Source: Armatimonadota bacterium (GTDB lineage: Bacteria > Armatimonadota > Chthonomonadetes > Chthonomonadales > Chthonomonadaceae). Taken from it: DNA of 64,000 nt. Positions 1,770-47,087 of the stretch are shown piece after piece (the first letter of the stretch is position 1; each line of letters opens with the position of its first letter). The notes under the pieces were generated by a model, which saw only the letters and a list, made by a program, of their open reading frames with translations, ran no database searches and was not told where the DNA came from. The DNA lies in the NCBI GenBank assembly GCA_028871815.1, contig JAGWMJ010000001.1, positions 186,001 through 250,000 on the forward strand, read 5' to 3'. Both the position numbers and the translations under genes were made by a program.

Positions 1770-2810
1770 TCAAACCCGGTCAGCCGGGGCAGCCGCCCTT
1801 GACAGCCTGTCGTGAACAGCCAGCCAATCCTCGCCGGATGGCGGGTCATCCACAACGATGCGATCGACGCTCCGGGCGTCCAACGCGCGCAGCGCGGCGT
1901 ACAACAGATGCGCGTACCCGGCGGCGGCGTCAGGCATGCGAATGGCGTGCAGCCGCGCGGACGCCACAGCAGTCGAACCGGACATCGTGAGCCAGCCGAC
2001 CGCCAGCCCTGCTTCCACGGCGCTCCGCACCGCATCGTGCGCGGCGGCAGCCGGTACAACGATGACCTGCGCCTGCGGCGCATAGTGCCGCGGCAGCATC
2101 CCCGGGGAGCGCAGCGGGCCCTCGCCGTGTTGATCCACCGCGGAGATTGAATCCGGGGCAAGGCCGAGGGCCAATGCGATTTGAGATGGCGAGATTGGCC
2201 CAGGTCGAAGGATGCGCGGCATCGGCAGGGTGCAGTCAACCACCGTCGATTCGAGGCCGCACTCCGTTGGCCCGCCATCCAGGATAATGTGGACGAGGCC
2301 GCCGAGTTCGGCGCGGACGTGCTCGGCCGTCGTTGGGGAGATACGGCTCGATCGGTTGGCGCTTGGAGCGGCGACCGGGACGCCCGCCGCATGAAGGAGC
2401 GCTTGCGCAACGAGATGTGATGGCACGCGCAGCGCCACCGTAGGGCCACCGGCTGTAACGATATCGGGAACAACTGCGCTGCGCGGCGTCACGAGGGTGA
2501 GGGGACCGGGCCAAAACACGGCGGCAAGCTGCCGGCATACTTCGCTCCATGCTGAACCAAGCGCTGCTGCCGCATCGGCGTCGGGCACGTGCACAATCAC
2601 CGGGTTGTGCGCCGGTCGGCCCTTTGCCGTGAATATGCCGGCCACGGCATAGGGATCGAGCGCGTTGGCGCCCAGGCCATAGACCGTTTCGGTCGGGAAT
2701 GCCACGAGGCGTCCGCTTCGAAGAGCGGCTGCCGCAACCGCGATCGTTTCGGTAGCCGGCTGCGCAGGATCAACGGCCAGGATGCGAGTGCCTGGTTTAC
2801 GACGTGGCAT
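1770..2810 (-). CDS. sua5: L-threonylcarbamoyladenylate synthase, long Sua5 type
   Basis: Makes threonylcarbamoyl-AMP from threonine, bicarbonate and ATP, the first step of the universal t6A37 tRNA modification. The YrdC domain (about residues 10-190) shows FPTETVYGLGANA, KGRP and SANRSS motifs. The linker PGMLPRHYAP and a following C-terminal domain mark the long Sua5 form rather than short TsaC. Length is 346 residues. ATG codons at 2816 and 2810 both overlap the end of the upstream BtpA-family gene (stop at 2797), so it is probably translationally coupled in the operon with cdsA and the btpA-like gene. Confidence 0.92.
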   Translation of the reverse strand: MPRRKPGTRILAVDPAQPATETIAVAAAALRSGRLVAFPTETVYGLGANALDPYAVAGIFTAKGRPAHNPVIVHVPDADAAAALGSAWSEVCRQLAAVFWPGPLTLVTPRSAVVPDIVTAGGPTVALRVPSHLVAQALLHAAGVPVAAPSANRSSRISPTTAEHVRAELGGLVHIILDGGPTECGLESTVVDCTLPMPRILRPGPISPSQIALALGLAPDSISAVDQHGEGPLRSPGMLPRHYAPQAQVIVVPAAAAHDAVRSAVEAGLAVGWLTMSGSTAVASARLHAIRMPDAAAGYAHLLYAALRALDARSVDRIVVDDPPSGEDWLAVHDRLSRAAAPADRV

Positions 2811-3633
2811 GCACATCGGGCCCGTGTCGCAGCGCGCGCACCAACGCTCGCACGCGGTCTGCATCGATCGGCGCGGAGACGTCGCCGTTGCGCTTCAGCG
2901 AAGTGCCTACGATGAAGCCGGCCGCATGCGGCAGGTACTCTCCGACGCGCTCCACGGAGGCTCCGCTGCCGACAAGCACCGGCGTGCCGGGCAGAGCCTG
3001 GGCAACGCGGCGCACTTCGCCGGCATCCGCGGGTTGACCGGTGGTTGAGCCGGAGACGATGATGGCCGCAGCCCCGCCTCTACCCGCTGCGTCGGCGGCA
3101 GCGCGCTCCACGGGATACGTGCCTAACGTGGCGCCGTGCTTCACGTCCACGTCGGCCCACAACTGCACGTTGGCGCCCAGCCGACTCCTGTAGGCCACGG
3201 CGCTTCTTGCCGCGCCTTGCAGGATGCCCTGATCGGTGACAGCCGCGCCAACAAACACATTGATGCGCACGAAGGCGCCGCCGCAGAGATGCGCGATTGC
3301 AATGGCAGACCGCGCGTCGTTGCGCAAGACGTTGAGGCCCATCGGCAGCTGCACGGCACGCCGCACCGCTGCGGCCGCCAGAGTCATGCCTGCAAGTGTA
3401 TGCCGCGGCACGCGGCGCCGCGCGAATGGCCCGTCGAAGAAGTTCTCCACGATAACGGCCACCGCGCCTCCGGATTCCAGCGCACGAGCGTCGCGGCATG
3501 CCTGCCGGATGGTCGCCGCGAGGCTTTGCGAGCAACTGTTGGCGCCCGGCAGCGCCGCCAGATGAACCATACCGGTTACGCCGGGCTGCTGAAAAAACTC
3601 CGCCGGAAGCTGCGTCGCGCCGCTGCCGGACAT
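2797..3633 (-). CDS. BtpA/SgcQ family protein
   Basis: A TIM-barrel protein of about 278 residues. It has the family pattern GMVHLAALPG near the N-terminus, GAVAVIVENFFD, MGLNVLRND and a C-terminal LVGSGASVERVGEYL. Cyanobacterial BtpA is needed for stable photosystem I, but the family is widespread in non-phototrophs where its role is unknown, and nothing phototrophic is visible here. Its start (ATG 3633, or GTG 3636) overlaps the cdsA stop in a GTGATG arrangement, and its end overlaps the sua5 start, so the three genes look coupled. Confidence 0.88.
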   Translation of the reverse strand: MSGSGATQLPAEFFQQPGVTGMVHLAALPGANSCSQSLAATIRQACRDARALESGGAVAVIVENFFDGPFARRRVPRHTLAGMTLAAAAVRRAVQLPMGLNVLRNDARSAIAIAHLCGGAFVRINVFVGAAVTDQGILQGAARSAVAYRSRLGANVQLWADVDVKHGATLGTYPVERAAADAAGRGGAAAIIVSGSTTGQPADAGEVRRVAQALPGTPVLVGSGASVERVGEYLPHAAGFIVGTSLKRNGDVSAPIDADRVRALVRALRHGPDVHATS

Positions 3634-4520
3634 CACCGCTGGACCAGCAGCAGGAAGAGCAGCGCACAGGCCGGCGCGGTGAACATGAGGCTGTCCAACC
3701 GGTCGAGTATGCCTCCATGCCCGACCACGATCGAGCCGAAATCCTTGACGTTGGCGGTGCGCTTAAGCAGCGATTCGAAGAGATCACCGCATTGGCCCAA
3801 AAAGCCCGCGCAGAATCCGAAGCTGATTCCGACCACGGCCGGTACATGCATCGCCAGGCCGATCCCAAGGCCGGCCAGGATTCCGGCCACGAAGCCGGCA
3901 GCCGCACCTTCCCATGTCTTTTTGGGGCTGAGTTTCGGCGCCATGAGCCGCCTACCCCACTTTTTGCCGACCAGAAACGCGGCCGTATCAACGGCCGTAA
4001 CACACAGTGACGCCAGCAGCAGCAGCCAGCCACCGGGCGTTCCGAGTTTTTCGTTGAGCGGCACATGGGGCATTGCGTAGAGAGCGGCCATACCGGCAAA
4101 GGTACCACCCAGCCAGATGTTGAGGAGCACGCCATAGAACCGGCGTGCGCCAGGCGGCAGCGTGGCGGAGTCGGCGCTTCGACCACCAAACTCGAGCAGC
4201 GCCATAACCACTGCGGCCGGGGCAACCACGGCTGCGAAGTGCAAAGCCGGGTCGTGACTGGCGGCAGCGACCAGCACGGGATAGATCAGCGCGGACCATG
4301 CGATAACGGTCTGAACCGGGCTCCGCGTGAGAGCACGGTACGCGGTAACGGCCTCGAGAATCCCCACGGCCATCACAAGTTCCAGCGCCACCAGGAAAGG
4401 TACGGGCGGCAACATGCAGATAACAATGAACAGCAGAACGCCCACGATTCCGGTGACAAATCGCACCGTCATGCCTGCCGCGCCGGATGTTCCGCCGGAG
4501 TGTGTGGTAGGGCCAGCCAT
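3633..4520 (-). CDS. cdsA: Phosphatidate cytidylyltransferase
   Basis: Converts phosphatidic acid and CTP to CDP-diacylglycerol, the branch point of phospholipid synthesis, in the inner membrane. About seven hydrophobic segments precede the CDS signature near the C-terminus: SPKKTWEG, then GQCGDLFESLLKR, KDFG, and GHGGILDRLDS. Length 295 residues matches the family. ATG 4520 is preferred; GTG 4550 would add ten unlikely residues. First gene of a coupled operon with the btpA-like gene and sua5. Confidence 0.93.
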   Translation of the reverse strand: MAGPTTHSGGTSGAAGMTVRFVTGIVGVLLFIVICMLPPVPFLVALELVMAVGILEAVTAYRALTRSPVQTVIAWSALIYPVLVAAASHDPALHFAAVVAPAAVVMALLEFGGRSADSATLPPGARRFYGVLLNIWLGGTFAGMAALYAMPHVPLNEKLGTPGGWLLLLASLCVTAVDTAAFLVGKKWGRRLMAPKLSPKKTWEGAAAGFVAGILAGLGIGLAMHVPAVVGISFGFCAGFLGQCGDLFESLLKRTANVKDFGSIVVGHGGILDRLDSLMFTAPACALLFLLLVQR

Positions 4521-33688: not shown

Positions 33689-34471
33689 GTGGATGCGCAG
33701 CCACCACATACACCCTATCGCCCCACCGAGCCGGTGGTTTTGCCGACGGAGCCGACGCGAAGCGTAACGGACATTATCGCGCAGTTGCAGCGCGATGCCG
33801 ACACGGAGCGGAGTTTGGCGCGCCGCCGCCGGGCGCGCATAGCTTTGCTGGTTGTGGGCCTGGCGCTACTTTGGCGATGGATCCATGTTTTCCCATGGTG
33901 GCTCTGGGTGGCAGGCGGCGTCGGCGTTACCAACGATCTGGCGATGCTCCGGAGGCGCCGCGCGGCATCCGCACAGCAGCTCGGCAACACGGCAGATCCC
34001 ATCGCAATCGGACCGCTGCTCGCCGTTGCCGTGCGCGACAGCCAGGAGAGCGTTCGGCGGGCCGCTCGTGATGCTCTCTGCAAGCTCCTGCCACGGGCCC
34101 GGGCAGACACGGCCGCACAGATTTCCGCTGGACAGATGGAGTGCCTGGTTTTGTTGATGCAGCATGGCAGCACGGAGTTCACGATCGCTGGACTGCAGGC
34201 TTTGGAACAGGTCGGTGATGACCGAACCGAGCCGCTTGTGGAGCAGCTTGCCACCAGCCGGATCCCGGCAGTGAGGTCTGCGGCGCTGCGGGCGCTGCCT
34301 TTTGTGCAGCAGCGCGCCACGATACGCCGCGACTCCGCCATGCTGCTGCGGGCTGCCGGCGCCGCAGAGACTACGGCTTCGCCGGCGGAGCTGCTGCGAA
34401 GCGCCGGCGCAGCGGCGGTTGAGCCGGCGGAGCAGCTTCTGCGACCCGGCGCGAACACCGAAAACGCGTGA
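33689..34471 (+). CDS. Membrane-anchored HEAT-repeat-like protein
   Basis: A 260-residue protein with GTG start. A basic stretch RRRRARIA precedes a hydrophobic region (about 50-85). The remainder is alpha-helical with HEAT-like units (VRDSQESVRRAARDALCKLL, IPAVRSAALRALPFV), suggesting protein binding. The C-terminus holds a short repeat, ELLRSAGAAA and MLLRAAGAAE. Its TGA overlaps the GTG of the GH20 gene, so it may be coupled to it. No specific function can be assigned. Confidence 0.7.
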   Translation: MDAQPPHTPYRPTEPVVLPTEPTRSVTDIIAQLQRDADTERSLARRRRARIALLVVGLALLWRWIHVFPWWLWVAGGVGVTNDLAMLRRRRAASAQQLGNTADPIAIGPLLAVAVRDSQESVRRAARDALCKLLPRARADTAAQISAGQMECLVLLMQHGSTEFTIAGLQALEQVGDDRTEPLVEQLATSRIPAVRSAALRALPFVQQRATIRRDSAMLLRAAGAAETTASPAELLRSAGAAAVEPAEQLLRPGANTENA

Positions 34472-37359
34472 ACGTACGCACGAACTGGGCCGCAACTGCC
34501 GGTTCGGTGGCCGCCTGCCTGCTCAGCGGCCTGCTGGCCGGCGCACGGGCAAATTGCGAGATACCGGGGCAATCGCAACCGCGTTGGTCCGCCGGTGGAG
34601 TTGATCTGTCGGTTGCCGGTGTGCCACTGCTCGCCGGCGGATTGGTACAGTTATTCACTGCCGCCGGCGCCGGCGTGTACAGTTCCGGCGGCTCGCCACC
34701 GCAGGTCACCGCGATGGCGCTTGCCGGCGGCGGATGGCAATACGTTGCCAGGTATACCGGCCCGCAGCAGTTCACGGCTGCCGAGACTGTGACGGTCGCC
34801 GCCGGCCGCGTGACCTGGGCGCTGACAGCCCAGCAGAATGGCCCGGCGCCTGTCCGGATGGAGTGGAACGCGGCTCGCATTCCAGCCGCTATATTGGTCG
34901 GGTGCGACTACCGCGCGACCAACCTCGGCGGCGTGGATGTTTCCGGCACCGTCGGTTACCTGCCGGCGAGCGGCGACATGCTCGCCGCATCGCTCGGCGG
35001 GATTGTGACCTCGCTGGCGCTAAAGCACACCGGAGGCGGTTACCTTCGCTTTTCTGCGCCTGCCGGTGAGGGCTTCCTGTTGTTTGACGCACGACGGGAT
35101 GTCTGGCTGGAAGGCCAACGCGTATTCTGGCTCGGCGTACCGGACGTGACGCTGGTACCCGGACGCCCGGCGCGGCTGCAGATCGAGCTGGCCATCACGA
35201 CGCCTGCCATCGGAGCAGCGGTACCAGACGTCAGCATTCCGTCACCGGCTGCGCCGGTGGCACTCGCGAAAGAGCCGGCTCCGGCACTTTTGGACGCTGA
35301 CGGCAACCCGATCCTGATCCCGATGCCCAAAGAGGTGCGATTTACCAGCAACCGCATGCGGCTCCGCGGCACAGTCCCGGTGTGGCTGCCCCGGTCCACG
35401 CGCAGATTTGCACGTCTGGAGGCTGCCGTGCGCAGGCTGACCCGGCGCTGGCAGCGCCGGTACCGCGTCCGGATGCCAATTCGATGGGGTGCATGGAGCG
35501 GGCGCGGCATCGGTGTATCTGTTTCGCGGGCCGGCGCGCTGCCGACCGATTCTCCTGCCGCACCGCGAGAGGCGCAGGGCTACGCACTCACGGTCACGGC
35601 ATCCGGTGTGGCGATTACAGGCACCGATGAGCGAGGAGCATGGTATGGACTGCAGACGCTGAGGCAGCTTGTGATGCGTTCGCCGCACGGTGAGGCGTGG
35701 CTGCACGGCGTTGAGATTACCGACTGGCCGAGTCTCGCCTTTCGTGGCGCCCACCTCTTTGTAGGCAAGCATGCGCTGCCGTTCCACACTCGGTTGATTT
35801 CACACATTTTCGGCCGGTTCAAGCTGAATGCGCTCGTTCTGGAGTGTGAGTACTCCCGGTGGAAATCACATCCGGAAATCCGCGTCCCGGAAGCGATGCC
35901 CCTCCGCGACCTGCGGGCCGAGGTCGAGTTTGCACGACGGCGCTTTTTGCAGCCGATACCGTTGATCCCGTCGCTGAGCCACACGGACTGGATCTTCAAG
36001 AATGGACGCCACCTCACGCTGGCGGAAGACCCGGCGAGTCCACACGCCTACGACGTATCCGACCCACGATCGTATCAGATCCTGTTCGATGTATATCGTG
36101 AGGCGATCGGTATTTTCCGCCCGAGCGCTTTCCACATTGGGCACGACGAACTCCTCTCCGCGGGATCTTCAGCACCTGGCGCCTATCCTTTCCGCGCAAA
36201 CCACCGCGGCGCCGGCACAGCACAACTTTTTTCCGGCGACGTCTGGCGCATCGACGCTTTCCTGCGCGCCCAGAACATCCGACCGATGATGTGGGCCGAC
36301 ATGCTGCTTGCTCCCTCGGATGGCAATCCGGCGCGATATCCCCGGTTTCCGGCGGCCAACGCACCAACCGCGGCGGCAGCGCAGGAGATGAGGCAGAATC
36401 TGCCCGGGGACATGATCCTGGACGACTGGCGATATGAACCCGGCAGTGAGCAGCGCAATGGATTGAACCTGTTTCTGAACAGCGGGCATGATGCAATTGG
36501 CTGCAGCTGGTTCCAACCGCAGAATATCCGTGGTTGGGCGCTTCAATGTGTGCGAAAAGGCGCCCTGGGCCTGCTGCAGACTACGTGGGCTGGATATAAC
36601 AGCGGTGAAGCGCTTCTGCACACGCAGCTGCGCCAGTTTGACGCTTTTGTACTGGCCGCAGAGTACAGCTGGAGCGGAACGAAACTGCAGCCCGGCGACG
36701 GTTCCTCACCGCCGGCGGCCGGCACGCTCCCGTGGAATGCGCGCGACGTTTTCATTCGCTCCTGGAGCCGGTCGTCCCAAAGCACAGCAAGCGGCTGGAC
36801 GATTAACCTGAGCCAGGGCACGAACATGCAGCTCGCGGCGCCGAGATCGCACGGTCTCCCCTGGTCTGCGCCTCGAACCGCCTCGGCAGCCTGGAGCGCT
36901 AGGGATCCCCTCGATGGCGCGGTAGTGCAGAGCGAAAAGGTTCCGACAGGCGTCTGCCTGCGCAGCCGCCTGGAGGTGAACCGAGGCGAGGTCGGACCCG
37001 GCGCCATCGTACTGCACCCCAACGCACGCGCCGGCCATATCGCGCTCCTGCAGGCATGCGCCTTCCCATCACCGGATGGTACGACCGTGGCAACAGTGAC
37101 CCTGAGCTACGCGGATGGCGGCCAAGCCGAACTTCCTCTGCGGTATGGCCGCGAAACCGGCGCTCTGGATGACAACGGCGAGCCGGCCGGAATGACCACC
37201 GCGCTGATCCCCTGGCGGGCCGATGCCGCTGCGGCGCCACTGTGGCTCCGGATTTGCACGCTGACCAACCCGCAACCGGGCAAGCGGATCGCGGCCATTC
37301 GCATCGCCGCGATCGACCCGGTGGCTGCACCGGTTCTGTTCGGCATCACGGGCTGGTAG
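34468..37359 (+). CDS. Exported beta-N-acetylhexosaminidase, glycoside hydrolase family 20
   Basis: A 963-residue enzyme for removal of terminal beta-GlcNAc or GalNAc. A signal peptide (VAACLLSGLLAGARA) is followed by an unassigned beta-rich domain (about 30-260), a GH20b-like domain (PMPKEVRF to YGLQTLRQLV), and the barrel starting at DWPSLAFRGAHLF. The substrate-assisted catalytic pair is D560-E561 in FHIGHDELL; the usual GGDE is GHDE here. A C-terminal domain follows about residue 750. Start is GTG 34468 overlapping the previous stop. The 3' end overlaps the convergent ankyrin gene by 14 bp. Confidence 0.85.
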   Translation: MNVRTNWAATAGSVAACLLSGLLAGARANCEIPGQSQPRWSAGGVDLSVAGVPLLAGGLVQLFTAAGAGVYSSGGSPPQVTAMALAGGGWQYVARYTGPQQFTAAETVTVAAGRVTWALTAQQNGPAPVRMEWNAARIPAAILVGCDYRATNLGGVDVSGTVGYLPASGDMLAASLGGIVTSLALKHTGGGYLRFSAPAGEGFLLFDARRDVWLEGQRVFWLGVPDVTLVPGRPARLQIELAITTPAIGAAVPDVSIPSPAAPVALAKEPAPALLDADGNPILIPMPKEVRFTSNRMRLRGTVPVWLPRSTRRFARLEAAVRRLTRRWQRRYRVRMPIRWGAWSGRGIGVSVSRAGALPTDSPAAPREAQGYALTVTASGVAITGTDERGAWYGLQTLRQLVMRSPHGEAWLHGVEITDWPSLAFRGAHLFVGKHALPFHTRLISHIFGRFKLNALVLECEYSRWKSHPEIRVPEAMPLRDLRAEVEFARRRFLQPIPLIPSLSHTDWIFKNGRHLTLAEDPASPHAYDVSDPRSYQILFDVYREAIGIFRPSAFHIGHDELLSAGSSAPGAYPFRANHRGAGTAQLFSGDVWRIDAFLRAQNIRPMMWADMLLAPSDGNPARYPRFPAANAPTAAAAQEMRQNLPGDMILDDWRYEPGSEQRNGLNLFLNSGHDAIGCSWFQPQNIRGWALQCVRKGALGLLQTTWAGYNSGEALLHTQLRQFDAFVLAAEYSWSGTKLQPGDGSSPPAAGTLPWNARDVFIRSWSRSSQSTASGWTINLSQGTNMQLAAPRSHGLPWSAPRTASAAWSARDPLDGAVVQSEKVPTGVCLRSRLEVNRGEVGPGAIVLHPNARAGHIALLQACAFPSPDGTTVATVTLSYADGGQAELPLRYGRETGALDDNGEPAGMTTALIPWRADAAAAPLWLRICTLTNPQPGKRIAAIRIAAIDPVAAPVLFGITGW

Positions 37360-38674
37360 TGGTTATAGCAGCGGCCGATTTTGACGCGCCGCGAATCCGG
37401 GCCTCGAGCAGCGCTGTGACCTGCGGATGGTTGTAAGTCTTTGCCCAGGCGAGCGCCGACCAGCCGCGGGCGTCCAGCATATTCGGGTCGGCGCCGGCAT
37501 CCAGAAGCGTTCTGGCGTTGTTTGCACTGCCCTGCGCTGCCGCCACCATCAGCAGCGTCATGCCATCCGCGGAGTGTTGGCGCTGGTTTGGGCTTGCCCC
37601 ATGCGCGATCAGCGCCTTCACCGCCGCAAGTGGAAGAGCCTGCTCCATGGCGACTTCCATCGGGCTTTGGGCCTTGGCATGCAGCGCTCCCGGCGCAGCC
37701 TCGGGCGGCGGCGGTACCACGGTGGGCTTCGCGCCATGGTTCAGCAGCCAGAGCATCAAAGGTGTATCGCGAATCTGAAGCGATGCGACCAATGCGGACT
37801 CACCATCTACCGTGAAGTTCACATCGACGCCCATCTGCACCATCTGCTCTACACGAGGCAGGTCACCTGCAAGCGCCGCCGCGACCAGAAACTGGTTGCG
37901 ATCCTTCCGCCCCATCAAGGGTGCGCCTGCCGCCCTGGTTCCCCGGCGCAGCAGCTGCTCAATCGCTGCTACGGTTTTTGGGTGCCTACCGATTTCCGCC
38001 AGGCAGAGTGGCGTATCGTGGTAGACGGTGTGGACGTTCAGGTTGGCGCCGAGCGCAACAAGCTCCCGCACCTCGGCCGTTCGACCGCGCATCGCCGCCA
38101 GTTCCAGGCTCACATCGGCAGAGGAGGGATCGACGCGCAGCAGTTTGCGCAGGAGTGGCTTGGGCGCCGAGTTCTTCAGGGCAAACCGGATCGCGTCATC
38201 GTTCGGCCTGGCTCCAGCGTCGGCCAGCGTTTCGGCAGTGCCCCATTCTCCGCTGACCATCGCTGCCGCCAGCGCGGTGGTATCGATCTGGCCCGGAATT
38301 GAGATCGCGGCCGCCGGACTCGCTCCCTGCGCGATCAATTGCCGACATACCACCACGCTGCCATCCTCGGCGGCGCGAATAAGCTGGGCGTTTAATGAGA
38401 GCTTTGCTCCGAGGCCTCTCAGAATGTGTACCATGGCATCATTCCGCTGAACCAGCGGCGCGTCCGCCACATCGCGTTGGGCGAGTATCTGACGTGGATC
38501 CGCACCGTTGGCCAAATCTCGCCGCACGCGAGCCACGTCTCCGTTCGCGAGCGCGAATTGAACGTCTCGATCAGCTATTCGCGCACGCGCCGCTCGCGCC
38601 CGATAGAACAGGATGACCAGCAAAGCGGCAGCCAGCGCACCGCCGACCAGCCCGCGCAGCAGCCTGGCGCTCAT
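37346..38674 (-). CDS. Membrane-anchored ankyrin-repeat protein
   Basis: A 442-residue protein with one N-terminal transmembrane segment (LVGGALAAALLVILFY) and about ten ankyrin-like units, the clearest being DGMTLLMVAAAQGSANNARTLLDAGADPN and the unit at about 260-300. They should form a protein-binding solenoid outside the membrane. Its ATG overlaps the stop of the Gfo/Idh/MocA gene upstream (ATGA). No partner is evident. Confidence 0.85.
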   Translation of the reverse strand: MSARLLRGLVGGALAAALLVILFYRARAARARIADRDVQFALANGDVARVRRDLANGADPRQILAQRDVADAPLVQRNDAMVHILRGLGAKLSLNAQLIRAAEDGSVVVCRQLIAQGASPAAAISIPGQIDTTALAAAMVSGEWGTAETLADAGARPNDDAIRFALKNSAPKPLLRKLLRVDPSSADVSLELAAMRGRTAEVRELVALGANLNVHTVYHDTPLCLAEIGRHPKTVAAIEQLLRRGTRAAGAPLMGRKDRNQFLVAAALAGDLPRVEQMVQMGVDVNFTVDGESALVASLQIRDTPLMLWLLNHGAKPTVVPPPPEAAPGALHAKAQSPMEVAMEQALPLAAVKALIAHGASPNQRQHSADGMTLLMVAAAQGSANNARTLLDAGADPNMLDARGWSALAWAKTYNHPQVTALLEARIRGASKSAAAITTTSP

Positions 38675-39642
38675 CCGGCCAGCAGCTCCTGCGCCAGGAT
38701 GAGGTCCGCCGCCGCCATCGTCTTCACGGCGTCGGCAAAGCAGGAGGATGGCTCCGGACCGCCCCGAAGCGCGTCGAGGAATTCGCGGATTTTGGCGCGG
38801 AAGCCACCGAGGATCCAGGGACGGCTGTCACCGGCGATGGTGGCGGCGTCAAAGCTCTCCCCCTCCAGACGGCCGTCGGCGTACAGGTTTCCACCGGTTT
38901 CCAGTTCCAGCTCTGCGCAGATGGAGGGCGCGTGGATCTGCACCCGGAAGGTGCGCCGGCCGCTCGTCCAGCTGTTGGCCAGCATGCCCACCGAGCCGTT
39001 GTCGAATTCGATCATCGCGCTGAAGAAGTTGATATCCGGTGTACCGATACGCCGGGCGGCCGATTGAATGCGCACAATCTCGCCGCGGCAAAGCCATCGG
39101 AGTGTATCGATGGCGTGCACGCCGTCATCCATCATGTGATCGCGGGCATCGAGGTATGGAGCGGGCGAGCATTTGTAAAACTCGCAGACGGCATGCGTCA
39201 CCGGACCGCGTTCGCGGCACCTGATCGTCATCTCGCGGAGGATCGGCGAGCTTCGCCGCTGGAAGCTCACCTGCGTTACGCAGCCATTCTTGTCGGCAAG
39301 ATGCGCCAGCGCCCGCGCCTGATGCACGGTAATGCCCATCGGCTTTTCGATGTACAGCGGGCAGCGACGTTCGAGGAGCCAAACCCACAGCGGAAACATG
39401 ATATTGGGCTGGCCGATGCACCACACCGCTTCCGGCTCGACCTCATCCACCATCCTCTGATAGTCGATAAAGCGCCGAGCGTGGTTAAGGGAGTGGCGCT
39501 CGCACGTTTGCGCCATTCGCTCTTCGTTGAGATCACATACGGCCGCAACCTCCGCATCCGGGAATGAAATGAGCGACGGATAGTGCACGGCGTTTGCCAT
39601 GGCGCCGCATCCGATGCAGGCGATTCTTATCGGTGAACTCAT
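38671..39642 (-). CDS. Gfo/Idh/MocA family oxidoreductase (first)
   Basis: A 323-residue NAD(P)-dependent sugar or inositol dehydrogenase-like protein. The Rossmann motif is IACIGCGAMANAVHYPSL, the EKP motif is YIEKPMG, and the catalytic region has DDGVHAIDTLRWL. Substrate unknown. ATG 39642 has GAGGT eight nt upstream. It follows the TIM-barrel/SDR fusion gene after 18 bp, suggesting an operon for degrading a sugar derivative. Confidence 0.92.
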   Translation of the reverse strand: MSSPIRIACIGCGAMANAVHYPSLISFPDAEVAAVCDLNEERMAQTCERHSLNHARRFIDYQRMVDEVEPEAVWCIGQPNIMFPLWVWLLERRCPLYIEKPMGITVHQARALAHLADKNGCVTQVSFQRRSSPILREMTIRCRERGPVTHAVCEFYKCSPAPYLDARDHMMDDGVHAIDTLRWLCRGEIVRIQSAARRIGTPDINFFSAMIEFDNGSVGMLANSWTSGRRTFRVQIHAPSICAELELETGGNLYADGRLEGESFDAATIAGDSRPWILGGFRAKIREFLDALRGGPEPSSCFADAVKTMAAADLILAQELLAG

Positions 39643-39660
39643 GTCCGGTGACCTCACAGC

Positions 39661-41295
39661 CTAGGCAATGCGCATGGTAAGGCCGCCATCGATCGTAACC
39701 GTTTCTCCCGTAATGTAGTCGTTGGCCAGGAGCATCCGGATCACTGATGCCACCTGCCCGGCACTGCCCTCGGAATGAAGCGGCACGCGGTTGTTGAGGT
39801 TGTGCGCTTTCGCCTCCGGCGTCATGGTCTGATGGAAGCGCGTCCGGATAATGCCCGGCGCCACGCAGTTCACACGGATATTATCCTCTGCCAGGTCACG
39901 GGCGAGCACACGCGTAAACTGGGGCAGCGTGCCCTTGACTACACCGTAAGCCGCTGCACCAGCGCAACCACGCAAACCGGCAGCGGATGAGACCAGCACG
40001 TCGGCGCCATATCCGGCCCGCTTCTGATACGGCGCAACGGCCCGAGCGAGATGAAATACAGCGTGGACGTGCAGGTCGAACGCGCCAAGCCATGCCTCCT
40101 CGGAGACTTCCAAAATCGACCCTGGTACCGGTCCACCGGCCGAGTGCACCAGCGCTTCGAGCCCGCCCAGTTGCTGTGCGGCTTGCAATACCGCAGACCG
40201 ACAGCCCTCCCCGGACTGCAGGTCCATCTGGATATGCTCGCACTGCCGGCCGGATTGCCGTATCTCTGCCTGCAGATCCATCGCCTCGGCATCCGCGTTG
40301 CGCGACACCACTGCGAGCCTGGCCCCATGCTGCGCGAGAAGCCGCGCGGTGGCGGCGCCGATCCCGTGCGTACCGCCTGTAACCAGACACCTCAAGCCTT
40401 CGATCTCCAACGTCCCTCCTTGCACGCAGAGCGCTGCGGGCCTATGTGGAACCGCCGGCGTGTCGTGAAACAGCGAGTGCGCAAAGGCAACGTCCACGCT
40501 AATGAGGCGATCCACAGCTGCAGCGTCGGAGTACTCGGCGGTGAGGCAGACCACGCCATCCCACTCTCGCCGCCGCAGTTCTGCCGCCACGCGCGGCCAC
40601 GAGGCCAATCCCAGCCTTCCGGCGGTGAACCAGTGCTGCCACTCGGCGACCTCGGCCTCTGGTCCGTTGGTCCGGCGCCAGATCGCGTTCTTGAGGTTCA
40701 CCATCCGCAGGTATGGCCAGATGATGTCGATGGCGTCTTCCGGCTCCTCACCGTTCAAAGCGTTGTGCGCGGCGTCCCACACGGCCGCAATAGCCTCTCG
40801 CGGGTAGGGTTCGCACAATCGGAGCAGCCCTAACGCGTTGGGAATGCACCTTCCGCTGTGATTCTGCAGGCCCAGGGTAACGCCGTGCTTCAACAGCAGC
40901 GGCGCCAGTTGATCGAACTCGCGCCGCAACCGCTCTTCCGTGGCGCGGTAGCCGGCCGCATCTACATTGAGGCAGACACGGATCACCGGCACTCCAGCCT
41001 CGGAACAGGCCGCCAAAGATCGTTCATCGGTTGGGCCGGCGATACTCTCTATGGTAAGCCCATAATCCGCCAGCATACGAGCGGCCTGCGACAGTTCGGC
41101 CACTCGATCCGGTGGCACCGGATATCCGGGCCGAACCGGGAGTTCAATGCCATTGAATCCAAGTGACGCAACCATCGCTCCAAGCTCCGGCAGAGCGAGG
41201 TGCGGCCATGGCTTTGTGAAAACTGTGAACTTGATGATGTTAACCCACCGAGAAGACGACGTACATGGCAGTTCGGCTTGCCACCTGCGAATCAC
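39661..41295 (-). CDS. Fusion of TIM-barrel sugar isomerase and short-chain dehydrogenase
   Basis: One uninterrupted 544-codon frame. Residues about 19-275 form an AP-endonuclease-2-type TIM barrel (IKFTVFTKPWPHL, FNGIELPVRPG, LGLQNHSG, VWDAAHN, LTAEYSD). Residues 300-544 form an SDR with cofactor loop VTGGTHGIG (306-313), Ser436, Tyr450 and Lys454 in AYGVVKG, and the C-terminal ITGETVTIDGG. Within the join, AGGAGG (complement of 40415-40420) precedes an in-frame TTG at 40410, so the SDR might also be made separately. GTG 41295 is the only ordinary start; conserved sequence begins near 41240. Confidence 0.85.
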   Translation of the reverse strand: MIRRWQAELPCTSSSRWVNIIKFTVFTKPWPHLALPELGAMVASLGFNGIELPVRPGYPVPPDRVAELSQAARMLADYGLTIESIAGPTDERSLAACSEAGVPVIRVCLNVDAAGYRATEERLRREFDQLAPLLLKHGVTLGLQNHSGRCIPNALGLLRLCEPYPREAIAAVWDAAHNALNGEEPEDAIDIIWPYLRMVNLKNAIWRRTNGPEAEVAEWQHWFTAGRLGLASWPRVAAELRRREWDGVVCLTAEYSDAAAVDRLISVDVAFAHSLFHDTPAVPHRPAALCVQGGTLEIEGLRCLVTGGTHGIGAATARLLAQHGARLAVVSRNADAEAMDLQAEIRQSGRQCEHIQMDLQSGEGCRSAVLQAAQQLGGLEALVHSAGGPVPGSILEVSEEAWLGAFDLHVHAVFHLARAVAPYQKRAGYGADVLVSSAAGLRGCAGAAAYGVVKGTLPQFTRVLARDLAEDNIRVNCVAPGIIRTRFHQTMTPEAKAHNLNNRVPLHSEGSAGQVASVIRMLLANDYITGETVTIDGGLTMRIA

Positions 41296-41372
41296 TTCCC
41301 GGCAGGAATGCTGCGCCGACTAATTCAATACCCCGCCGTATTGCCCGTATCCGCCGATTCGGAGAGGTTACC

Positions 41373-42140
41373 ATGACCGCAGACACGGCCTCGAGCGACA
41401 CGATCACTCTGGAAGCGCGTCTTGACGCGCTTGAAACCCACGGCTATGTCGTGATTCCGGCCGCGCTTACTGCGGATGAGACGGAGCGATGCCGAACGGC
41501 GCTGAATATGGCGCGAGCGAACGGCTGGGAAGAGGGGCTGAACGCGGTCGGCAACATGTGGTTCGATCACCTGCTGGAGCAGAACCCTGAAGTATTCCGG
41601 CCGCTCATCGCGCACCGCTCCGTGCGCCCGTACCTGGAAGCGCTCTACGGACCCCAATGCCAGCTGCGCCGCCTGAGGGCCCATATCAATCCCGGTGAGT
41701 ACCTGCAGGAGTGGCACATGGATTTCTACGGATACTGGCATCAACCGCTTCAGCCGCGCTACGCCGTGCGCGGTACCGGCATCAACACCACCTTCTATTT
41801 TCAGGATAATGGTCCCGGTGTTGCGCGGCTTACATTTGTAAAGAACGGCCACAAGTCGGCGCCGCCAGCGGAGTTGTTCACGACGCAAGGCAGGACCAGC
41901 GATCACTCCGCGTTTGAGCGCTGGTGCTACCAGCAGGAGCAGGAAACAATCTATCCCAAGGCGGGCGAGGCGGTCCTCTTCTTTTCGCACATTCCGCACC
42001 AGGGCGCTAAAGAGGATGCCTCAGCGGAACGCTCGAATGTGGTGTGCCACTATCAGGGCAATCCATTCTATACCGGGCTGCCGCATGTGTCGGTACCCCT
42101 GGGCGATCCCGGCGTCTTTCCGATAGCGCAAGGCGCCTGA
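41373..42140 (+). CDS. Phytanoyl-CoA dioxygenase (PhyH) family protein
   Basis: A 255-residue Fe(II)/2-oxoglutarate oxygenase. The iron ligands are the HxD of QEWHMDFYG and the distal His of FFSHIPHQG; an Arg that could bind 2-oxoglutarate is a few residues beyond (SAERSNVV). PhyH-family members hydroxylate varied small molecules; the substrate here is unknown. ATG 41373 has GGAGAGG upstream; the open frame back to 41265 is unconserved. The next gene begins 4 bp after its stop. Confidence 0.9.
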   Translation: MTADTASSDTITLEARLDALETHGYVVIPAALTADETERCRTALNMARANGWEEGLNAVGNMWFDHLLEQNPEVFRPLIAHRSVRPYLEALYGPQCQLRRLRAHINPGEYLQEWHMDFYGYWHQPLQPRYAVRGTGINTTFYFQDNGPGVARLTFVKNGHKSAPPAELFTTQGRTSDHSAFERWCYQQEQETIYPKAGEAVLFFSHIPHQGAKEDASAERSNVVCHYQGNPFYTGLPHVSVPLGDPGVFPIAQGA

Positions 42141-42144
42141 ACCG

Positions 42145-43134
42145 ATGCCGAGGCACTATCTCTGCGTGAAAACCTCCTCTGCGTTTTCGATCGATGGCAA
42201 TGTGCACAAGCCGGAGTGGGATGCGGCGCCCTGGACGGAGGACTTTGTGGATATTGAAGGGTCGGCGAAGCCGCTGCCGGCGCTTCGCACCCGTGCCAAG
42301 CTCCTTTGGGATGATGAGTACCTGTACATTGCCGCTGAACTTCAGGAGCCGGATGTTTGGGCTACCCTGACGCAGCGGGATTCGGTGATATTCCACGATA
42401 ACGACTTTGAAGTGTTCATCGATCCTGACGGAGATAATCACGAATACTACGAGCTTGAGATCAACGCCCTGAATACCGTGTGGGATTTGCTGCTGATAAA
42501 GCCGTATCGCGACGGCGGTCCACCGGTCACCGGCTGGGATATTGCGGGCCTGAAATCGGCCGTTCAGGTTCAAGGCACGTTGAACCGGCCAGGTGACGTC
42601 GACCGTGGCTGGAGCGTGGAGCTGGCCCTGCCGTGGCACGCCCTCGCCGAATGCGCTCACCGCCGCACACCACCGCAGGATGGTGATCAGTGGCGCATCA
42701 ACTTTTCTCGCGTGGAGTGGGACGTCCACGTTGTGGATGGCAGTTACCGGAAGATTGACGGGCGGCCCGAGCATAACTGGGTCTGGTCGCCCCAGGGTGC
42801 GATCAACATGCACATGCCGGAGATGTGGGGATACCTGCAGTTCTGTACGGCGCCCTTTGGCGCGGCAGCGTTCCGGCCGGACGCTGCCGTTCCTGCGCGT
42901 GAACTGCTGATGCGGATCTACTTTGCGGAGCACGCATGGCGCACCGCGCACGGGCGATTCACCGCGAACCTGGCGGATCTCAACATCGCACCGACGTCTG
43001 GGCCTTCGATCCGGCCGCCGATCCACCTCGAAGTGTCCGAGATTGGGTTTCTGGCGTCGGTTACGGTGGAGCGCTCTCCCGGCGTAACCGAGCGCTGGCA
43101 CGTCAAGGATGACTCGCGACTGTGGAAGCAGTAG
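42145..43134 (+). CDS. CBM9-like carbohydrate-binding family protein
   Basis: A 329-residue protein with a family 9-type sugar-binding beta-sandwich over about residues 10-235: FSIDGNVHKPEWDAAPWT at the start, AKLLWDDEYLYIAAEL, DNDFEVFIDPDGDNHEYYEL, GWSVELALPW and WRINFSRVEW. No signal peptide and no catalytic domain are visible, so it may be cytoplasmic or a binding accessory. It is probably co-transcribed with the PhyH gene. Confidence 0.85.
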   Translation: MPRHYLCVKTSSAFSIDGNVHKPEWDAAPWTEDFVDIEGSAKPLPALRTRAKLLWDDEYLYIAAELQEPDVWATLTQRDSVIFHDNDFEVFIDPDGDNHEYYELEINALNTVWDLLLIKPYRDGGPPVTGWDIAGLKSAVQVQGTLNRPGDVDRGWSVELALPWHALAECAHRRTPPQDGDQWRINFSRVEWDVHVVDGSYRKIDGRPEHNWVWSPQGAINMHMPEMWGYLQFCTAPFGAAAFRPDAAVPARELLMRIYFAEHAWRTAHGRFTANLADLNIAPTSGPSIRPPIHLEVSEIGFLASVTVERSPGVTERWHVKDDSRLWKQ

Positions 43135-43176: not shown

Positions 43177-45597
43177 TCACGTCGGCGGCGCGAGGAGATA
43201 CCGCACACCGCGGAGGGCATGGAACACCAGTAGGTTTGGCTCCGGCCGTTGAACGGCCGTCGAGGAGGGTGCAAGCTGCAGCCGCCGCACTGAACGTACG
43301 CGGCAGACCCGGTCGGCGTTTGCCGTGACGGCGGCTTCCGTGATGCGGTTACGGCTCCAGGTGATGTCCACCTCGAAGCCGCCGCGGGCGCGCAGACCCC
43401 GTACCGAGCCGGAGGGCCACGCATCGGGGAGCGCCGGCAGAAGGTGGATCTCGCCGGCGTGGCTTTGTAAAAGCATCTCGGCGATACCGGCGCATCCCCC
43501 AAAGTTTCCATCGATCTGAAACGGTGGGTGGGTGTCGAACATGTTGGGCAGCGTGGAGCCGTGCAGCAGCGCTTTGAGGTGCGTCCAGGCTTCGTTGCCG
43601 TTTTCGAGGCGCGCCCACAGGTTGACGATCCAGGCGCGACTCCAGCCCGTGGCGCCGCCACCGTGGGCAAGCCGGCGTTCGAGGGAGGCCCGGGCGGCGC
43701 GCGCAAGGTCCGGCGTGCCACGAGGCGTGATCTGGCTGCCCGGATGCAGCGCGAAGAGGTGCGACATGTGCCGATGACCCGGTTCCGGCTCCTCGAAATC
43801 CTCGATCCACTCCTGCAGCTGACCGAAGCGGCCAACTTGATACGGCGGCAGACGGTCCAGCGCATGCCGGAGACGGCGGCTAAGGGCGGCGTCCTCACCC
43901 AGAGTATGCGTGGCTTGAATGCAATGCTCGAACAGATTGTGGAGGATGCCGGTATCCATGGTCGGCCCATAGCAAACGCTGCCGACCTGGCCATCGGCGG
44001 TCCGAAAGCTGTTCTCGGGTGAAATCGACGGCGCCAGCACCAGCCAGTTGTGCGATGGCTCTTCGGTGAGCGTGTTCAAAAAGAACTCGGCGCACTCGCG
44101 CAATATGGGCCATACACGGCGCAGATAGGCACGATCTTGCGAGAACTCATAGTGTTCCCACAGGTGCTGGCACAGCCAACCTGCCGCGGCAGGGTACTGG
44201 CCCCAGGATGGCCATTCGCCCGGTGAGGTGAATCCCCAAACATTGCTGATGGTATGCACCACCCAGCCGGACGAGCCGTAGTAAGCAGCGGCGGTTTTGC
44301 GGCCCGGCTTGCGCAGAGAATCGATGTACTGCAGGAAAGGCTTGTGGCACTCCGCCAGGTTGGTGGGTTCGGCCGGCCAGTAGTTCATCTCGTCGTTGAT
44401 GTCGTGATGGTAGTCGCCGTTCCAGGGAGTCTGTATGGTGGCCGCCCAAAGCCCCTGAAGGTTTGCAGGCAGTCCGCCGGGCCGTGAGCTGGAGATGAGC
44501 AGGTAGCGGCCAAACTGGAAGTAGAGGGCAGCAAGGGCTGGATCGGCCGTCCCGGTCTTCAGCCACTCATCGGTGGGTTGAGCCGCTCCACCATTGGCGC
44601 CCAGCCGGAGGGAGACGCGGCGGAAGAGGCGCCGGTGACTCCGCAGGTGCGCCGATCGTAAGGCGGCGAATGAACTGCTCGCCGCGCGCCGCAAATTGGC
44701 ATCGGCGACCTCTTCATACGCGTCCGAGCGGTAATTGGTAGCTGCAGTAACAATAAGCCGCAGCGCCGTAGCGCCGTCAATACGCAGCCCGGTTCCTTCC
44801 ACGCTGATCGATCCGCCGTCCGCCACCGCCTGCAGGAGTACGACCGCCTTCATCCCGCCCTTCAGGCTGATGGCGGAGCGAAGCAGACCGTGGCCGGTTG
44901 CGCTGGTTTGAGCCGCTTCGATGCGCGACAGCCGTACGGTGCAGGTGATCGCACCGGGCGTGGAAGCGGTAATCTGGGTGACGATGGCCGCGGCCGGCGC
45001 ACTGGCAAACGTCTGCCGGCGCCATCGGACGCCCTCCACGGTGTACTGAACCGAGGCAATTGCGGAGTCGAGGTTGAGCGATCGCCGGTAGTTGGTAAAC
45101 CGCTCATGACCGGGCGACGTGATGAGCAGATCACCCAGCGTTTCGTAAGAGCCATATTGAGCTGCGGCGCCGTTACCGCTGGATGAACCTGGGCCACGGC
45201 ATACAAATCGCTTTGCCGTGACGTTGAGAGCATCCACATACCTTCCAGCGAACAGCAGAGCGCGAATCTCCGACAGGTGGCTGAATGCTGCCGCATCGTC
45301 CGAATCCTGCCGCTCACCCGACCACAGGCTCTGTTCGTTGAGCTGGCAGCGCTCGTCTACAACGCCACCATATACCATGGCGCCAAGACTGCCATTTCCG
45401 ACCGGCAATGCGTGCAGCCAACCAGACCCATTTTGCCACTCGTTCGCGGCGCCGGCAGGAGGAACTTCGGCCGGCTGACGGTACCAGAGTTCGAGCGGTT
45501 GTGGGGGTTCGGTGTGCATTGCCGGCGCCACTATCGCCGCAGCGCCGCCCGCTAAAAGCCCGCGGCGGCTTATGCGCGGGCCGCGGCTACGCGCCAT
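43177..45597 (-). CDS. GH95 family glycoside hydrolase (alpha-L-fucosidase/galactosidase type), Tat-like signal
   Basis: An 806-residue exported enzyme. The N-terminus [12 protein letters not shown] looks like a Tat signal. The N-terminal beta domain opens with [16 protein letters not shown] and [13 protein letters not shown], the catalytic (alpha/alpha)6 region has [13 protein letters not shown] and [16 protein letters not shown], and the end has [17 protein letters not shown] and [14 protein letters not shown], all GH95 hallmarks. It would release alpha-1,2-linked fucose or L-galactose. The start overlaps the end of the second Gfo/Idh/MocA gene by 11 bp. Confidence 0.93.
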
Positions 45598-46627
45598 AGA
45601 TTTCGCGGTCTATCTCGGCCACCGTTACCGTGCGCTGCTCGGAGGCGCTGCGATCCAGAGCGAAGCAGATCGCGTGCGTTTTCACGGCATCCGCCAGGTT
45701 CACGTGGGATTCGCTGTTGCTGCGTATGCAGTCGATAAAGTGGTTGATCTCACCGTCGAAGGGGTGGTGCGACACATCGCCGCTGCTCGGAGTGATGAGC
45801 GGTGTTGTGATCCAGTCGTTTTGCCCGGCGAAAAACTCCTGCGCGAATATCCGGTTATCTCGGATCGCCCCGTCCTCGCCAAGCAGGTCGATGTTGAACT
45901 GGTACGGACACTTCGCATCAAAGGAGGCCGAGACCTTGCCGATCGCTCCCGACTGGAACCGCAGAATTCCCACGAGGTTGGTATCGTACTCGTACTCCGG
46001 GTTCCGCTTGTTCGCGAAGGCGCTCACCGTTTCCACATCACTCTGCACGAAGTAGCGAATCGCGTCCACGGCGTGGCAGCCGGCCGAGAGCAGAACGCTT
46101 CCTGCGGCCTTTCGCGTAACGTTCCATCGGTACTGGCTGTACTGTGGGCCAATGTGATGCCAGTAATCGGTTTCGGCATAGTAGATCGGTCCGATAGCCT
46201 CTTTATCCAGCATCGCGCGGATCCACTGGAACTGCGGGTTCCAGCGAAGAACGAAGCTGACCACCGTCTTTACACCGGCCTCTTGCACGGCCTGGAGCAT
46301 TTTGCCCAGTGATGCCGGATCGTTGGCCGCCGCCTTTTCAATCAACAGGTGCTTGCCCGCTCGGGCGGCCGCTATGGCAACCTCCGGATGTGTATCGGGC
46401 CGTGTGCAGATGGAGATCGCGGAAATCGCGGGGTCGGCCAGTATCTCCTCCAGTCGCTCGTAGATCTGCACCTCTCCGAGGCCGGTATCGGCTGCCTGTG
46501 CCTGAGCGCGCTCACGCGAGCGGCTGCAAAGCGCCACCACCCGGCAGTTGGAGTTTTTGCGGTACGAACGGATGTGCTCGCTGGAGACCCAGCCGATGCC
46601 CACCACGCCTATGCCAATCTGTTCCAT
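45587..46627 (-). CDS. Gfo/Idh/MocA family oxidoreductase (second)
   Basis: A 346-residue NAD(P)-dependent dehydrogenase-like protein. Motifs are [14 protein letters not shown], the EK segment LLIEKAAA (EKP with the proline replaced by alanine), and [11 protein letters not shown] around the active site. ATG 46627 is fixed by AAGGAGG just upstream. It has its own predicted promoter and overlaps the GH95 gene, so the two likely act on one substrate chain, such as fucose-containing glycans (inference). Confidence 0.9.
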
Positions 46628-46660
46628 GGAAACTGCCTCCTTACGCCGCCTGCATGGCGC

Positions 46661-46690
46661 ATTGTACAGGCAAATCGTCGCAGGGCTCAA
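46661..46690 (-). promoter_or_regulatory. Promoter of the Gfo/Idh/MocA-GH95 operon
   Basis: On the minus strand TTGAGC (complement of 46685-46690; 4 of 6) is 18 bp from TACAAT (complement of 46661-46666; 5 of 6), about 34 bp ahead of the start codon. Confidence 0.45.
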
Positions 46691-47087
46691 GTGCAGGCGT
46701 GGGCTCATCGAAAACCTGACCGACGTAGGACAGCCGCCTCACGGTAGAACCTGACCGAAGATCCGGAAGGCTTGCGGGCCTTTAAAAACGAATCACGGGG
46801 CACTCGATGAGTCGGCGCCGGCAGCATGACTCCATGCAAAGCGGTATCGCCAGTCGGGGCGGTGGCGGAAGTCGGTTATCGTGAGTTTTGCGAAGCTACA
46901 GGCATCCACCGCAGGTAGGTGTCGGCGGTAGCATCCCGTGTCGGAAGTGACGGAAGAGAAGAGCCATCACTCGTGAGGTAGGAGGAGGAGCCACGAGGCA
47001 AACGCCTGACGTCCGGGCTCCCAACGCTGCAGGAGAGCTGTCAGCGTCACCGGGAGACGCGCGTCTCGGCGGAGCGTGCCGCGCGGT
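46691..47087. other. Geneless stretch between the oxidoreductase promoter and the RHS fragment
   Basis: About 400 bp with no convincing reading frame on either strand. It is rich in GGAGG- and GTCGG-like purine runs. I looked for group II intron ends and the domain V hairpin, for tRNA and for a transposase remnant and found none. It may be debris from the event that cut the RHS gene. Confidence 0.4.

Follow-up and report, generated by a model that had tools for sequence, protein, structure and literature searches.

The window, that is, the whole stretch of 64,000 bases that was analysed, contains on its minus strand an open reading frame of 544 codons (39661..41295), which runs from a GTG at 41295 to a stop codon at 39663-39661 without an internal stop. 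Reading of the frame and Pfam searches identified a TIM barrel, a linker, and an SDR within it, and the sequence-only reading was correct in describing a one-frame TIM-SDR fusion in which no stop codon separates the two domains. AP_endonuc_2 matched residues 42-255 (E 7e-17, 62.3 bits versus a curated cut-off of 31.1), and adh_short_C2 (PF13561) matched residues 310-540 (E 3e-49, 168 bits). From its front, the frame comprises an N-terminal extension beginning at the GTG (41242..41295), as delimited by alignment with TIM relatives; a xylose-isomerase-like TIM barrel (residues 19-278; 40462..41241); a linker of 17 residues (279-295; 40411..40461); and a classical SDR domain (39664..40410), all on the minus strand. 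The computed mass of the full-length chain is 58.7 kDa. On the same strand, a Gfo/Idh/MocA oxidoreductase gene (38671..39657) starts with a GTG 3 bases past the stop codon of the fusion, or with an ATG at 39642, while a PhyH-like gene (41376..42140, plus strand) is the divergent neighbour. Both had been named earlier as adjoining genes and were recovered by Pfam, PhyH with a weak match of 22.4 bits against a cut-off of 22. The surroundings of the fusion are a sugar-degradation neighbourhood.

The TIM barrel was modelled together with the first 8 residues of the linker. The model (mean pLDDT 95, pTM 0.90) is confident up to model residue 260, corresponding to ORF residue 278, and adopts a TIM-barrel fold, with Art22 (8z1i) as its best match (Z 26.3, rmsd 2.3, 240 residues aligned) and UlaE and BDI_1903 tied near it (Z 25.6 each). 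Further fold matches were AtHYD (8ro4; Z 24.0, rmsd 3.0, 254 aligned, 18% identity), the 3-keto-glucoside 4-epimerase YcjR (6wn6; Z 23.9, rmsd 2.4, 231 aligned), and a 3-keto-glucopyranoside lyase (Z 22.5). The Pfam score, above the curated cut-off, places the barrel in PF01261.

Metal-dependent ketose epimerases of the tagatose/allulose 3-epimerase type coordinate their metal through Glu or His, Asp, His, and Glu on strands 5-8. In the TIM family, two of these four places are taken by Gln126 and Asn182, which are invariant in 51 sequences (window 40438-41241 and relatives). His128, Asp156, and Lys184 are likewise invariant in the 51 sequences, and Glu236 is conserved in at least 90%. In a profile alignment, Gln126 and Asn182 stand opposite the Glu/His and His of AtHYD and IolE; the window family thus differs from AtHYD, which has Glu and His at the aligned places. 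The passages describing AtOGE assign His132, Asp163, His189, and, weakly, Glu233 to the metal, and a catalytic role to His134 (PMC10628242), which the invariant His128 matches by spacing. Because two of the usual metal ligands are replaced, the TIM family is unlikely to be an ordinary aldose-ketose isomerase, as judged from these residues. The earlier proposal that isomerisation is coupled to the oxidation of one sugar found little support: the replacement of the two ligands is family-wide, and the fold relatives include a 3-keto-glycoside epimerase, a lyase, and a hydratase.

The SDR domain carries the motif TGGTHGIG, and Thr12, Gly13, Gly17, Gly19, Ser143, Tyr156, and Lys160 are invariant in 24 sequences, consistent with a classical SDR (TGxxxGxG; Ser, Tyr-xxx-Lys). 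We compared both domains with the strongly conserved columns of their families. The SDR departs at 5 of 87 columns (fourth of 15 sequences) and the TIM barrel at 3 of 72 (approximately tenth of 46), each within the range of its relatives, and by this comparison neither domain looks like a decaying pseudogene. Trees gave no resolved place for either window domain, and one alignment that combined rows of the fusion, TIM, and SDR came out badly mixed.

At the junction, AGGAGG (40420-40415) is followed by GACG and then by an in-frame TTG (40410-40408, minus strand), confirming the positions given in the sequence-only reading. That reading had also taken this TTG for the start of a separate SDR, which the SDR alignment bears out: among 14 close stand-alone relatives, the aligned codon is ATG in nine, GTG in two, TTG in one, ATT in one, and CTG in one, so that 12 of the 14 have ATG, GTG, or TTG there. 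In the closest SDR relative (60% identity; L068:5049-5774), the start column holds ATT, possibly a rare start codon, preceded by GGAGG. Furthermore, GGAG was read by eye within 24 bases upstream of the start column in 10 of the 14 relatives. Within the putative genes of the window, AGGAGG stands 3-16 bases upstream of only two of the 785 in-frame ATG, GTG, or TTG codons, and base composition predicts about 0.002 for such a site ahead of an inner in-frame start codon. The pairing of AGGAGG with TTG 40410 is more than chance, given this rarity and its coincidence with the homologous SDR start. Based on the position of the motif and on the SDR relatives, AGGAGG (40415..40420) is probably the old ribosome site of the SDR, retained. 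The optimum spacing between a ribosome site and a start codon is 5-9 bases, and the four bases found here are short in comparison. To judge from its sequence, this AGGAGG-N4-TTG can probably also serve ribosomes as the start of a free SDR; the computed product would have 249 residues and 26.1 kDa, where the sequence-only reading gave 27 kDa. We found neither a promoter nor a terminator in a scan of 40300-41500, and a tRNA scan of the whole window also gave no hit.

The linker residues (279-295) lack a counterpart in most relatives in the alignment, and the first eight of them, as modelled, have a pLDDT below 50. Stand-alone TIM relatives end 0-14 residues past the Phe of a conserved 'SLF', and 36 of 50 end 1-3 residues past it. 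Since they end just past their last conserved residue, the 17-codon linker is probably a remnant of former spacer DNA. A spacer of 17 codons would be open and in frame by chance about 1 time in 5 (computed), and therefore the fusion can be explained by the loss of a single stop codon, with no call for a special mechanism.

The front of the fusion is less regular. No ATG, GTG, or TTG occurs in the fused frame at the position where the TIM relatives start, and the sole in-frame start codon is the GTG at 41295, approximately 18 codons further upstream and lacking a good ribosome site. The case for a full-length product is weakest here, and the missing start codon also hints at a possible error in the sequence. 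Alternatively, proper initiation of the TIM part may have been lost, so that only the SDR, using its own site, is translated; we consider this very improbable, since conservation of the TIM barrel is on a par with that of its relatives and the frame does offer a GTG upstream of it.

As a check on the fusion, the sequence-only reading had pointed to a search for the same domain pair in other genomes. Across 1,469 other genomes from four phyla, such searches turned up no second TIM-SDR fusion, and the fusion was thus seen in a single lineage only. Within the phylum (291 genomes including the source), 42 genomes had a match at E 1e-45, with both domains matched only in the source genome. In samples of 387, 392, and 400 genomes, rather than complete sets, from three further phyla, 4, 4, and 12 genomes gave matches at E 1e-40, none of which spanned the two domains. 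For each genome, these searches scored the best 3-4 candidates under strict E-values and could have overlooked fusions of distant homologues. The eight genomes of the named loci showed no fusion, and in none of 4,416 matching plasmid records did a single place cover 80% of the query. Judged by titles, no description of a TIM-SDR fusion was found in the literature. The relatives include drafts of Armatimonadetes, Chloroflexi, and Planctomycetota. The TIM-SDR fusion, a minor and rare peculiarity of one genome, joins two enzymes of known types and families and retains a start signal.

Several longer frames were re-read as candidate fusions and rejected. On contig 7 of the source genome, an SDR match (L003) lies in a 492-codon frame that we attribute to chance, because a second frame of 505 codons (2262-3779), by eye resembling a membrane reductase, overlaps its front half in a different register. 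Longer frames occurred elsewhere, of up to 652 codons in the outer phyla and 615 in the phylum, but each of these loci contained a stand-alone TIM or SDR.

The absence of the fusion from every other genome searched raises the question of a sequencing or assembly error, by which an ordinary neighbouring pair of TIM and SDR genes would have lost a stop codon or its frame. Separate TIM and SDR genes, which the sequence-only reading had named, together with reads showing a stop codon near 40410, as the sign of such an error, are present in relatives. Since a normal start codon is missing from the TIM part as well, there may be more than one error in this stretch, and the source genome (3.68 Mb, 98.3% complete) is a draft of 22 contigs. 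Against this, the reading frame is maintained across the two domains and the linker, the contig is 717 kb long, and putative genes add up to 60,471 of the 64,000 window bases, so errors are not rampant. We regard an error as unlikely.

The gene order in relatives bears on how the arrangement arose. Gene neighbourhoods were judged from open frames and tblastn, with some loci stopping at contig ends. Among 50 distinct intact stand-alone TIM loci, a related Gfo gene lies directly downstream of TIM in 16, the two genes overlapping by about 22 bases at one extreme and standing about 294 bases apart at the other, and directly upstream in three; L049, outside this set owing to its split TIM frame, shows the TIM-then-Gfo order too. 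The window Gfo is a relative of these genes. Such pairs, found in this phylum, Chloroflexota, Aerophobetes, and Verrucomicrobiota, have the same order as the window, with identities of 52-60% for Gfo and up to 62% for TIM, but they have no SDR between TIM and Gfo. The TIM family, often paired with Gfo, is an uncharacterised enzyme family. Conversely, no TIM or Gfo relative was found at E 1e-10 near the 14 SDR loci (L068-L081). Since the TIM-Gfo pair is conserved and the SDR lies elsewhere in the relatives, an SDR gene probably entered this pair, with the TIM stop codon now missing. The earlier suggestion of a stop codon lost between two operon genes stands as regards the boundary, where the SDR ribosome site is kept, and is to be refined as regards the operon, the conserved pair being TIM and Gfo. 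Its two options, a lost stop codon and a gene with two products, are compatible with each other.

A functional link between the SDR and TIM is supported by their co-occurrence in the phylum, though confounded by kinship. Seven of the ten phylum genomes with a close SDR (at least 53% identity) also carry TIM (Fisher p 1e-5, kinship ignored); the three without it are 64, 78, and 87% complete. The link is weakened because none of the four out-of-phylum genomes with a close SDR (47-57% identity; G416, G310, G961, and G1211) has a TIM match at E 1e-40.

We favour, with modest confidence, an account in which an SDR gene, bringing a ribosome site and a TTG start of its own, came to stand between TIM and Gfo of a conserved operon. 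With the TIM stop codon missing, the spacer, in frame by chance, would be read as a flexible linker of 17 residues. The course of events is inferred, and the stop codon may have been lost before or after the insertion; the frame, the positions, and the relatives are observed. Translation from the front would yield the 58.7-kDa TIM-SDR chain, ribosomes starting at AGGAGG-N4-TTG would probably add the free 26-kDa SDR, and TIM, SDR, and Gfo would serve one sugar path. More tentatively, the fusion may be fresh, with one message giving both a bifunctional TIM-SDR enzyme and, from the retained site, free SDR, and with fused and free SDR mixed in oligomers. If real, the arrangement illustrates a route to a bifunctional enzyme through insertion of a gene into an operon and loss of one stop codon, the former start remaining as a fallback for the second enzyme.

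RhaEW offers a comparison, its dehydrogenase part being an SDR. It is a rhamnulose-phosphate aldolase fused to a lactaldehyde dehydrogenase, the latter similar to sorbitol-6-phosphate dehydrogenase, and the passages on it report the fusion in several phyla (PMC3870299). Like the window fusion, it combines a sugar enzyme and a dehydrogenase in one chain, there joining two steps of one path; unlike it, its first domain is an aldolase rather than a xylose-isomerase-like barrel, and the window fusion was seen in one genome. The existence of fused dehydrogenases that work in one chain, such as RhaEW (PMC3870299), together with the intact TIM and SDR domains, could suggest an established bifunctional enzyme that is produced solely at full length, with AGGAGG and TTG as unused relics. 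We consider this improbable, as AGGAGG is fully kept although the residues it encodes could use other codons, and no second genome shows a lasting fusion.

For the favoured account, the nature of the sugar path is suggested by two gene clusters. In the levoglucosan cluster lgdA-lgdB1-lgdB2-lgdC (PMC7676230) and the Agrobacterium AtOGE/AtHYD operon (PMC10628242), both concerned with 3-keto sugars, Gfo-type genes lie beside genes annotated as 'sugar phosphate isomerase', and the passages describing these systems, in which Gfo enzymes and such barrels act by oxidation, elimination, hydration, and reduction (PMC7676230, PMC10628242), mention neither a fusion nor an SDR. Because Gfo enzymes work beside such barrels there, the TIM-SDR-Gfo set probably serves a keto-sugar path, by analogy. 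An oxidoreductase would make or remove the keto group, and the TIM barrel, in view of its solved relatives and its Gfo partner, may epimerise, eliminate, or hydrate the keto sugar. If real, the fusion would also tie an uncharacterised SDR to the widespread, uncharacterised TIM-Gfo pair and give a hint toward the substrate.

Other genes were observed near the loci discussed. A related gene of approximately 240-290 residues lies near the TIM-Gfo pair at five loci (L087, L090, L097, L099, and L101), and the three of these that were scanned match Isochorismatase (PF00857); no such gene stands beside TIM-Gfo in the window. Ankyrin-repeat genes lie near the SDR both in the window (37346-38674) and in a relative (L076:4149-5042), probably by coincidence. 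Additionally, a GH20-like gene (34468-37359) and a GH95 glycosidase gene (43177-45597) lie one on each side of the fusion, and the window also encodes a CBM9-type protein (42145-43134) and a second Gfo (45587-46708).
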